Origin: Olivibacter domesticus
GTDB lineage: Bacteria; Bacteroidota; Bacteroidia; Sphingobacteriales; Sphingobacteriaceae
Direction: 5' to 3'
Assembly: GCF_900109575.1 (NCBI RefSeq)
Contig: NZ_FOAF01000001.1
Location: forward strand, 1,273,662 to 1,337,661
Length of the DNA stretch: 64,000 nt
A program made the position numbers and the translations under genes. Below are positions 6,656-25,629 of the stretch, piece by piece; positions within the stretch are counted from its first letter, which is position 1, and every line of letters begins with the position of its first letter. Below the pieces are notes generated by a model. The model was not told where the DNA came from, did no database searches, and worked only from the letters and a program-made list of their open reading frames with translations.

Positions 6656-7915
6656 CTATTTTTGGTACATTCTATAGGAATATTGGCTCGCATTGTCTTT
6701 ATTTATAATAATGCCAAAAGATGAATTTTCAAAGCCTAAACCATATTCGTAATTGCGATCAAGATTATTTGCAAACCGGGCCTGATGAACGAATTCGTGG
6801 AGTAGCGTAACACCCAGTAGAAAAGCTGTTGCTTGTTGTGTACTTGTAAGATTAGCTGCTTCAAGCCCCCTTACCCAACTTGCGTTAATGTTTACCACGT
6901 TTGGGTTTTCAGACCCTTTAAAATAACCATATTCAGAACTGCTGCCCAAATCTTTAATGACAATCTCAGGGCCTTTTCCGAACTCGATCTTGCTTAAGAT
7001 TTCTGCTTCTGTGAATCCAGACCACTTAACAAGTGCCTCCATTACTTTTTTGTCATTTTGCACAAAAGATTTTAGTTCTTTTACCATAGTTGTAAATCTA
7101 GGATATTTTGATTGATCAATGTCCTTCATTACAAATCTGTTCGCTCCCAGTTCTGTCTTTGTCGGTGGAGCACTTCCACCTGGAGTACCGGGTTGAACCG
7201 GTATTGGCGTTCCTGGGTTCGTTACAGGGCTAGGAATTCCAGGTCCATGGGGATCAGGCCCTCCAGGAAAGGGATCTGTAATTGTAACCTCTTCCAACCA
7301 CCCTCCTGGTTGAGGATCTGAACCATCATCGTTACAGGGACCTGGGTTACCGCCGCTACCGGGAGATCCTGTCGTGCCCTGATCAGGGTTGGTGCTACAG
7401 CTTGTATTGGCGCTCATTGTGGAAAGCTTTTGTAATTGGCTAACACTATTATTGTATTCTCCAGAGATGATGAAATCTCCATTGCCCGTGTAAAGATTCA
7501 TTTTTGCGTCACTTTCATAAGGATTTGTCAAGAACTCCTTTATTAAGGCCTCGCGCTGACCTGATTGACCTACTGCTATACTTAGCTCCATAAAACGGGA
7601 ATCAGCATAATACTCGTCCCGGTTTACTAGCTTCACGTTTACAATTGGAACACCTTTTGAGTTTTTACTGATTGCTGCTGTCTCCCAATCTGGTTGGTAA
7701 TCACTTAAAGCAAAATCTTTAGCCTTTCCATCTTTTGCATTCTTACTGTGTTGGCTGTACCATTCGATGGCACTTTCAACCAAAGGATTTAAAGATGTTT
7801 CATCTGTGGCCTCTGGGCTAATGGTTTCTTCTTTTTGACAGGAAGTGATACTGAACGCGAGCAAGACAAATATGGTCAATAGTTGCCGTAATCTCAAAGT
7901 AATTTCGTTTTTCAT
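6656..7915 (-). CDS. Lipoprotein with HExxH metallopeptidase domain, toxin-like
   Basis: With the ATG at 7915, the 419-residue product begins MKNEITLRLRQLL and has lipobox SITSC (Cys26). A TTG at 7936 is a less likely start. The N-terminal ~150 residues are a polar domain. A Gly/Pro-rich linker of roughly 90 residues follows (GTTGSPGSGG, GGPDPHGPGI). The C-terminal domain carries LLHEFVHQ, the zinc-binding HExxH at residues 373-377, with a Glu/Tyr-rich tail. This resembles the Tox-MPTase-like peptidase domains found at the C-termini of Bacteroidota polymorphic toxins and their lipoprotein relatives. A third zinc ligand is not obvious. Next gene downstream is the small lipoprotein at 6152. Confidence 0.75.
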   Translation of the reverse strand: MKNEITLRLRQLLTIFVLLAFSITSCQKEETISPEATDETSLNPLVESAIEWYSQHSKNAKDGKAKDFALSDYQPDWETAAISKNSKGVPIVNVKLVNRDEYYADSRFMELSIAVGQSGQREALIKEFLTNPYESDAKMNLYTGNGDFIISGEYNNSVSQLQKLSTMSANTSCSTNPDQGTTGSPGSGGNPGPCNDDGSDPQPGGWLEEVTITDPFPGGPDPHGPGIPSPVTNPGTPIPVQPGTPGGSAPPTKTELGANRFVMKDIDQSKYPRFTTMVKELKSFVQNDKKVMEALVKWSGFTEAEILSKIEFGKGPEIVIKDLGSSSEYGYFKGSENPNVVNINASWVRGLEAANLTSTQQATAFLLGVTLLHEFVHQARFANNLDRNYEYGLGFENSSFGIIINKDNASQYSYRMYQK

Positions 7916-7936
7916 AAAATTATAATCTGTACTCAA

Positions 7937-8287
7937 TCTATTTTTAAGAACGGCGCTAAAATATAATTTAACCCCACTCAGAAAAATTAATTACACAGAT
8001 ACCCTTTTTCACTACACGAACTACAGTCTATCCTTGACGAAATATATTTAAAGTTTGCAATAATACGACAGGATGGCGGAATGGTAGACGCACGAGAAAG
8101 TGTAGATCCCATTAACGGCATCAATAATATGACCGTATCTAAAACATCTCCATGTCCTGATATCTTAAAAGCTGACATCGTTTGTTTTGATATTCTAATT
8201 TTTTTAGTATTTTTGATTTAACAAATCAATAACCATAAACTTAGCAGTGGCTGCTACTGCAGTTATAGTAACGACTAAACCGAAATA
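7937..8287. other. Intergenic region with tRNA-like sequence
   Basis: About 350 bp without an intact protein gene lie between the metallopeptidase and the ORF6N gene. The only structure noted is the tRNA-Leu-like segment at 8067-8160. A 63-codon minus-strand frame across it has no coding character. Confidence 0.4.
8067..8160 (+). other. Degenerate tRNA-Leu-like sequence
   Basis: The segment tggcggaatggtagacgc matches the D-arm (box A) of leucine tRNAs. It is followed by cattaacggcatc, similar to the long variable arm, and cagga at the 5' end can pair with tcctg at the 3' end. The anticodon stem does not pair, and the T-arm lacks GTTCGA, so it is not a functional tRNA. It could be a relic left by an integration event. 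Confidence 0.3.
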
Positions 8288-8884
8288 ATGGCAAAATCCG
8301 AGACCGAAAATAACCCATCTATGATACCCGACGAGGTAGTTATCAGTAAAATATATCTCATTCGAGAACAGAAAGTAATGCTGGATAGCGATTTAGCAGA
8401 ACTTTATGGGGTGGAAACGAGAAGGTTGAAGGAGCAGGTACGCAGAAACTTGGTTCGTTTTCCGCCTCATTTCATGTTTGAACTCTCCCGAGAAGAATAT
8501 CAAGAAATTCTAAGATCGCAAAATGCGATCTTAGAACAAGGTGCTTATTCCAAATATTTACCTTTCGCTTTCACCGAACACGGCTTGCTGATGCTATCTA
8601 ACGTTTTAAAAAGCGAAAGAGCAATCTCAATGAGCATTCGCATCATCGATGTTTTTATAAAGATGAGAGAAAAGCTTTCCAGTCACACTGAGCTTTATCT
8701 CGAAATAGAACATATTAAAAATGAGATAACAAAGCAAACAAAAAGGCAAGACAATCAGGATAAAAATATAGAGCTGGTATTTCAATATCTAGATGAATTG
8801 GCCGATAAAAAGAACACCATGGCAGCAACCCAATCAGAAAGAAAAAGGATTGGATATGTACTAGGAAAAGAAAATCAGAATTAA
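8288..8884 (+). CDS. ORF6N-domain DNA-binding protein
   Basis: The 198-residue protein has a full ORF6N domain (about residues 14-110): VVISKIYLIREQKVMLDSDLAELYGVETRRLKEQVRRN..., FPPHFMFEL and LPFAFTEHGLLMLS. The C-terminal ~70 residues are a charged, probably coiled-coil helix rich in Lys, Glu and Gln. The domain comes from phage and large-virus DNA-binding proteins and is frequent in mobile regions of Bacteroidota; the target is unknown. A frameshifted relative lies at 25367-25629. Inside the gene, at codons for LRSQNAI, is a strong inverted repeat (separate entry). Confidence 0.9.
   Translation: MAKSETENNPSMIPDEVVISKIYLIREQKVMLDSDLAELYGVETRRLKEQVRRNLVRFPPHFMFELSREEYQEILRSQNAILEQGAYSKYLPFAFTEHGLLMLSNVLKSERAISMSIRIIDVFIKMREKLSSHTELYLEIEHIKNEITKQTKRQDNQDKNIELVFQYLDELADKKNTMAATQSERKRIGYVLGKENQN
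8508..8536. repeat. Intragenic inverted repeat in the ORF6N gene
   Basis: Arms ttctaagatcgca (8508-8520) and tgcgatcttagaa (8524-8536) pair perfectly over 13 bp around the loop aaa. The related ORF6N copy has a 17-bp version at the same codons with different arm bases. Confidence 0.9.
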
Positions 8885-8897
8885 ACACTTGAATGCC

Positions 8898-8972
8898 GTA
8901 TAGGTTTTTTTGTACTTCTTCGGCATCGAAACATGATAGGGAGGGTTTCTACGAATACACGATATAGACAAT
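8898..8972 (-). pseudogene. Decayed copy of the start of the small gene at 13314-13517
   Basis: Read on the minus strand, the segment resembles codons for LRNLIVFGTEEVQKAY of the 13.3-kb gene. Both share taggcttttt-like sequence, gtac(c/t)tcttcgg and a gatata block. Frameshifts and substitutions prevent translation. Confidence 0.5.
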
Positions 8973-9080
8973 AGAATGTATGTGTTTGCTAAAAATTCTG
9001 GGCATTACATTTTTTTGGACAGCCCGGATATTGTGATCAATGAAATTGTTAGTCAATATAAAGCATCATCCAAAGAATAA
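8970..9080 (+). pseudogene. 3' fragment of a second alpha/beta hydrolase copy
   Basis: The last ~111 bp of the hydrolase gene (4122-4232) recur here with about ten differences, including SGHYIFLDSPDIVIN and the stop codon. Everything before the NRMYVFAK codons is missing. The remaining 34-codon frame from 8976 is not expected to make a protein. It shows that a second hydrolase gene or a rearranged duplicate once stood here. Confidence 0.8.
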
Positions 9081-25366: not shown

Positions 25367-25629
25367 TCTGTGATATCCGATGAAGTGGTCATCAGTAAAA
25401 CATATCTCATTCGAGAACAGAATTAATGCTAGATAGCGATTTAACAGAACTTCATGGAGTAACAACAAAACGCTTAAACGAACAAGTCAAAGGCAATATA
25501 AACCGCTTTCCGGAAGATTTCATGTTTCAATTGAACGAAAGTGAATGGCAATGTTTGAGGTCGCAAATTGCGACCTCAAACATTGGGCGAGGTGGTAGAG
25601 CCTATCTACCCAATAATACGAGGTTATAG
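25367..25629 (+). pseudogene. Frameshifted, truncated ORF6N gene
   Basis: The sequence follows the ORF6N gene at 8288 from SVISDEVVISKTYLIREQ, but one base is missing after CGAGAACAGAA, giving an in-frame TAA. The remaining frame from 25426 continues MLDSDLTELHGVTTKRLNEQVK...FMFQL to GRGGRAYLP, and then leaves the family before FTEHG and stops. The copy therefore has a frameshift and a lost C-terminal half. It carries the longer version of the intragenic palindrome just before the break. Confidence 0.85.
25549..25585. repeat. 17-bp-arm inverted repeat in the ORF6N pseudogene
   Basis: Arms caatgtttgaggtcgca (25549-25565) and tgcgacctcaaacattg (25569-25585) pair perfectly around the loop aat. 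It is located at the same codons (LRSQIAT) as the repeat at 8508-8536. Confidence 0.95.

Follow-up and report, generated by a model that had tools for sequence, protein, structure and literature searches.

The replication origin of phage lambda lies within the gene for its initiator, O, the protein that starts replication. To our knowledge, the function of the ORF6N, RhuM and DinD protein families is largely unclear. For ORF6N or anti-repressor families, we are not aware that a cognate site within the gene has been reported, and a listing-level search of the open-licence PMC literature recognised none. For LacI, an excerpt of PMC3711431 describes roadblock autoregulation at the operator O3. 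Here we describe a palindrome inside an ORF6N gene of Olivibacter domesticus which, with a probability that we put at roughly 0.9, is a symmetric site bound by the gene's own ORF6N product and probably serves its autoregulation.

The intragenic palindrome and its conservation in ORF6N genes

The gene is located at 8288..8884 (+) of the window, i.e., of the whole 64,000-nucleotide stretch that was analysed. Its 198-aa product matches the ORF6N family PF10543 (E 3.3e-32; 111.1 bits against a curated cut-off of 27.8), the PHROG 4792 anti-repressor family (E 1.1e-25) and the PADLOC family PDC-S05 (E 4.1e-60); the family is thus listed as an anti-repressor in PHROGs and as a defence candidate in PADLOC. 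We propose that the product is a winged helix-turn-helix protein that binds a palindrome in its own coding sequence. This putative self-binding palindrome, to which no strand is assigned, occupies 8508..8536 and reads TTCTAAGATCGCA-aaa-TGCGATCTTAGAA, its 13-bp arms being complementary at 13/13 positions around a 3-nt centre. It encodes LRSQNAIL, and its centre (8522) lies 234 bases from the start of the gene; in 168 genes of the family the centre lies at a median distance of 215 bases from the most upstream in-frame ATG. A piece resembling part of a leucine tRNA was noticed by eye upstream of the gene, at 8076-8130; ARAGORN called no tRNA in the window.

The window holds a second copy, a truncated ORF6N fragment (L005) with a 76-aa open frame at 25411..25611 (+). 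Its palindrome at 25549..25585 (no strand; centre 25567) has 18-bp arms and a 1-nt centre and occupies the homologous codons. When the two are superimposed on their centres, they differ at offsets 7, 10, 12 and 14, all within the arms of the first copy, and each difference is compensated in the opposite arm. The preliminary description had reported both palindromes, the shared codons and the four compensated differences, and all of this was borne out. Six ORF6N matches were found in the whole genome, and ORF6N-type palindromes with arms of at least 9 bp are present in four of these loci (L001, L002, L005 and L006).

Related genes were collected from the same genus (5 genomes, an ORF6N match in 4), from the phylum (198 genomes, a match in 58), from a scan of bacterial and archaeal genomes (the best 80 loci among the matches listed) and from 39 viral contigs, which also supplied ORF6N genes; a viral scan with the single window protein as a query confirmed no relative. 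Among the best 80 loci, many of which are from MAGs, the titles point to Bacteroidota, Omnitrophota, Acidobacteria, Chloroflexota and Treponema, among others. The sample is weighted toward Bacteroidota, with several phyla represented. Nine overlapping loci (L007-L015) were dropped ahead of the profile search, and a profile built from 20 ORF6N genes gave 289 domain matches. Removal of exact repeats and of domains that did not cover profile positions 50-62 left 229 distinct domains, removal of near-copies left 210, and 206 of these could be anchored on a conserved Gln column (4 were without the anchor).

The palindrome was found at the same codons in most of these genes: at least 9 of the 12 pairs at offsets 2-13 from the centre are formed in 181/206 non-redundant domains, and fewer than 9 in 25/206. 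In the set of anchored domains, the paired fraction at offsets 2-13 is 0.77-0.93. At twelve slid centres it is 0.13-0.27 (mean over offsets 1-14), and all twelve combined gave a single arm of at least 8 bp. Arms of at least 10 bp are present in 91/206 domains, compared with a mean of 0.11 and a maximum of 1 in 200 synonymous shuffles and with a mean of 5.7 and a maximum of 12 in 200 arm swaps. Thus, the palindrome is explained by neither chance nor codon constraint. The recurrence of the palindrome and the pairing of its arms beyond codon constraint were the checks proposed in the preliminary description, and its claim that the palindrome is kept at the DNA level while the encoded amino acids change stands. 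Some arms are perfect to 18-21 bp, which exceeds what the contacts proposed below would need, and some genes bear two or three sites in tandem.

Protein residues that go with palindrome letters

To relate the protein to its palindrome, we calculated the mutual information of each protein column with each palindrome offset in 191 domains with at least 5/9 pairs (15 of the 206 fell below this threshold), the ranking of columns excluding those coded by the palindrome itself. For offset 4 (entropy 1.55 bits), the shuffle-corrected values were 1.18 bits for column 36 and 1.01 for column 33; for offset 7 (0.94 bits), the best column was 32, with 0.62. Offsets 8, 10 and 13 had their best columns at 128, 127 and 115 (0.58, 0.58 and 0.68, respectively). 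Columns 32, 33 and 36 fall in what looks like a recognition helix (VETKRLNEQV), while columns 115, 127 and 128, which follow the site, fall in what looks like a wing segment. A PDB search gave one chance-like match (E 0.99).

The relation between column 36 and offset 4 is close to a code: Glu goes with G in 72/75 cases, Gln with A in 66/74, Arg with C in 19/22 and Lys with C in 7/8. Common contacts of helix-turn-helix proteins are those of Gln with A, Glu with C and Arg or Lys with G. Out of the 191 genes used, 171 had both a prediction and a pair at offset 4, and 164 of them agreed; in two of the seven exceptions (L072 and L198), the gene holds a further palindrome that does fit. For the wing columns, Lys goes with A at offset 10 in 52/59 genes and Tyr with G at offset 8 in 84/91. 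Offset 7 is noisier, as helix Arg is accompanied by A in 26 genes, G in 8, T in 1 and an unpaired position in 21 (n=56).

In the window gene, the proposed recognition helix, recognised from the sequence, corresponds to T44-R53 (codons at 8417..8446, +). It includes R45 (8420-8422, +), which goes with offset 7, and E49 (8432-8434, +), which goes with offset 4. The third base of the Ser77 codon TCG (8516..8518, +) is offset 4, and TCG is the codon that accompanies helix Glu, here E49. K89-Y90 (8552..8557, +), in the likely wing segment SKYLP, fit as well, with A at offset 10 and G at offset 8, respectively. The palindrome of the truncated fragment obeys the same code: its apparent helix TTKRLNEQV has Lys at 25468-25470 (+) and Glu at 25480-25482 (+), and offsets 7 and 4 are both G. 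The letters of the site therefore go with the presumed reader residues of the same gene.

In the left arm, offset 4 falls on the third position of a serine codon. Among non-redundant Ser-Gln genes, whether paired there or not, this codon is TCA in 67/67 genes with helix Gln, TCG in 57/57 with helix Glu and AGC in 5/6 with helix Arg, while other serines in ORF6N domains use all six codons. Since this choice is synonymous, a residue-residue contact in the protein cannot explain the link. Protein-protein coupling as its source is thereby excluded, and the sites in other frames also make it unlikely. When sites are grouped by the codon phase of their centre, the main frame has 160 that fit the code and 7 that do not. 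The second frame gave 16 fits and 14 misfits; by eye, the code holds for the 15 sites with an ORF6N-type core (VTNCD type, with other amino acids), whereas the misfits are weak palindromes of an unrelated kind. The third frame has 8 misfits, two of which are operator-type and lie inside truncated ORF6N copies in the O. domesticus genome (L003 and L006). The perfect extra site of L006 misfits the helix of its frame and has, by eye, the core of the L002 site. As for tandem operator-type sites, both fit in L055, L056, L067, L068, L083 and L138; L072 and L198 each have a perfect site that fits and a weaker one that misfits.

The code was also followed on a tree built without the reading columns and the palindrome-coded columns (65 columns; rough). 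There are 65 changes at offset 4 and 63 in column 36, and 46 changes share a branch, compared with a chance expectation of 17.7 on average and 27 at most in 2000 simulations; 40 of the 46 are in the direction of the code. The palindrome-coded column 93 shares 58 branches and column 33 shares 40, all others sharing at most 23. The counts are inflated because the tree is rough, and the other columns are equally affected.

For the held-out test, the table was fixed beforehand and applied to 75 new loci, mostly strong matches, from genomes that had not been used for it. They contained 86 domain matches, of which 66 were full-length and 56 were not close to earlier domains or to each other. At offset 4, the predictions were right in 52 of the 56 and wrong in none, the remaining cases being unpaired (2) or without a prediction (2). 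Right and wrong predictions numbered 35 and 7 at offset 7, 21 and 2 at offset 8, 42 and 3 at offset 10, and 26 and 2 at offset 13. With the best centre in the region chosen for each, all 56 domains reach 9/12 pairs; at least 10 pairs are formed in 54/56, compared with 2/560 synonymous shuffles. The shuffles reach at least 9 pairs in 52/560 because the best centre was picked. As the presumed helix residue predicts palindrome letters in more than 200 related genes, the palindrome is very probably the site of its own protein.

Two further families behave similarly. In RhuM (PF13310), at least 8/12 pairs were found in 76/86 domains, the centre falling on the third base of a codon; the palindrome has a different sequence and lies in a third reading frame, yet it follows the same offset-4 rule. 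According to the alignment, each residue preceding the conserved His is associated with a single offset-4 base in 61/61 non-redundant genes: Glu with G (18), Leu with A (15), Lys with C (9), Gln with A (4), Met with A (4), Tyr with G (4), Arg with C (2) and Ile with A (2), plus three single cases. On the RhuM tree, 13/18 changes at offset 4 share a branch with this residue, and 16/18 do so with each of two columns that are palindrome-coded by position. In DinD (NF008573), a third palindrome with at least 10/13 pairs was seen by eye at the DHF site in 23/27 of the loci listed, and its link to the helix was likewise seen by eye. E. coli K-12 dinD (L391, 4761-5585) has a near-palindrome, TGACCATTTCGAGGA-GATCCTCGATATGGTCA, at the site of the DinD family with 11/13 pairs, the next best place in the gene having 8/13. 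In Bro-N, palindromes were noticed in few loci.

Sites elsewhere in genomes and rival explanations

With up to 3 mismatches allowed, the 9+9-bp core of the window site is present at a single place in the O. domesticus genome, in the gene itself (control 0), so that the gene appears to be the sole obvious target of its protein there. The more general core pattern gave 15 rows in this genome, compared with 5 rows for a control read backwards, and single stray matches are therefore to be expected. The 15 rows correspond to 9 distinct places, 8 of them at ORF6N loci, which led us to reject a dispersed repeat. In nine other genomes, a 15-base core was found at 15 places in 7 of them (control 0): 9 inside ORF6N genes, 3 beside them and 3 elsewhere. 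Solo sites do exist outside genes. Half-sites within one difference of each other were found in 0/47 within-genome pairs vs. 5.8% of 2956 between-genome pairs; this is only suggestive of crosstalk avoidance among paralogues.

Several arrangements were noticed in passing. Solo palindromes with 12- and 14-bp arms lie outside ORF6N genes, beside unrelated open frames, at L378 1508 and L386 1508. Arrays of palindromes of other specificity classes follow right after the ORF6N stop codon in L133 (3009, 3061, 3103), L144 (2997, 3039, 3081, 3141) and L052 (1259, 1189); L128 and L160, whose flanks look similar by eye, have no palindrome arrays. L003 contains a whole extra ORF6N gene of about 640 bp (about 1805-2446) which is missing from L006 (about 1802), and by eye the junction is close both to the start codon of the extra gene and to the midpoint of a 42-bp palindrome of DinD type. 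Near ORF6N genes there are also DinD-type palindromes (L003 2427-2468, L127 3893) and one of RhuM type (L132 753), and in L126 the palindrome GGGGACAGTTGAATTCAACTGTCCCC flanks an ORF6N gene on both sides (2218 and 3167).

The preliminary description had ascribed the covariation to a hairpin, an invertase target, an ssDNA site, a translational element or template switching. None of these readings is supported as the main cause, and none explains why the arm letters follow protein residues outside the palindrome. Selection on an mRNA hairpin (for processing, translation or attenuation) would agree with the perfect inverted repeats with a 1- or 3-nt centre seen in many genes. Such a hairpin is expected to tolerate G.U over A.C, whereas the raw counts of arm mismatches in the 206-domain set are 19 for G.T, 54 for A.C and 79 for others, and since G.T is not enriched, the hairpin is not favoured. 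The helix link is left unexplained by it, Rfam gave one match far below the gathering score at 7900-9000 of the window, and we attach almost no credence to this reading. Template-switch correction of a quasi-palindrome, which keeps the arms alike without any reader, would yield long matching arms with the encoded amino acids changing along, but it accounts neither for the link between the letters and a residue outside the palindrome nor for the concentration of the core-pattern places at ORF6N loci (8/9); we regard it as very improbable.

An equally poor case can be made for a cassette junction, at which a recombinase would swap C-terminal halves. Four of the six ORF6N matches of the O. domesticus genome do end at profile positions 60-72 of 86, and the preliminary description had the C-terminal half diverging right after the site. 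On comparison, however, the alignment of L001 with L002 continues through the site as far as the gene end (66%), the DNA similarity between L001 and L005 stops about 110 nt before the centre, and no junction at the site was found in the copies compared. Moreover, a recombinase site would share one core in all copies, whereas here the inner half-site varies with the helix of each gene, so that this explanation is scarcely tenable. It is a less remote, though unlikely, alternative that the protein does bind the palindrome, which a mobile module would use as an origin-like or recombination site and not for repression. The tandem sites (two or three) of some genes, the solo sites and the gain or loss of a whole ORF6N gene with its junction near a palindrome centre would suit this role; it accords less well with ORF6N being the only domain that Pfam shows in the 198-aa protein and with neighbours that looked ordinary by eye in the 60 rows viewed of a total of 157.

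Proposed mechanism and comparison with known systems

We take the covariation to be that of a two-fold symmetric binding site which changes together with its reader. While the symmetry, the covariation with the helix and the success of held-out prediction are properties of the sequences themselves, the dimer, the helix and wing structure, the binding and the repression are what we infer from them. Most probably, a dimer would read the two half-sites. The recognition helix, which precedes the site by about 28 residues (columns 32, 33 and 36; here R45, R46 and E49), would contact pairs 4-7, and a probable wing that follows the site (columns 115-128; here around SKYLP) would contact pairs 8-13. 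A change in the helix would force a change in both arms, which would account for their covariation, and the encoded amino acids would have to follow. Bound some 215-235 bp downstream of the start codon, the protein may block transcription of its gene. Such autorepression is the most likely effect of binding, since for a protein whose single target is its own gene, limiting its own production would be the simplest function. As the site is within the coding sequence, this control would move with the gene, whatever promoter precedes it, and an incoming gene of the same class might also be silenced.

More tentatively, and with appreciable doubt, ORF6N, RhuM and DinD may form one system of self-recognising mobile genes, in which each protein silences its own gene and incoming genes with the same site. 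Such gene-level immunity or incompatibility could drive repeated switches of specificity, and the solo-site arrays might then be decoys or traces of contests.

For the ORF6N, RhuM and DinD families, the last represented in E. coli K-12 by dinD, the results provide a candidate site for binding together with a specificity code that can be tested. They also present a case in which synonymous codon choice tracks the presumed DNA-reading helix of the encoded protein, the regulator and its site evolving in one frame. Because site and reader would reside in one gene, each newly sequenced gene of these families should supply a matched pair for studies of helix-turn-helix specificity.

Phage anti-repressor families (PHROG 4792 and others) and PF10543 represent the same protein family as the window protein. 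RhuM and DinD resemble ORF6N in that the palindrome follows the codons of the presumed helix-turn-helix, and RhuM shares the offset-4 rule; they differ in palindrome sequence and in the codon position of the centre. In contrast to LacI and O3, as presented in the excerpt of PMC3711431, the window site is internal to the coding sequence, and no other place in the genome has its core within 3 mismatches. Lambda O is similar in layout, being also a DNA-binding protein with palindromic sites, arranged in tandem, in its own coding sequence, and the covariation points to cognate sites inside the gene in ORF6N as well. Unlike lambda O, the window protein has 198 aa with ORF6N as its only Pfam domain, and the ORF6N sites are longer and usually single.
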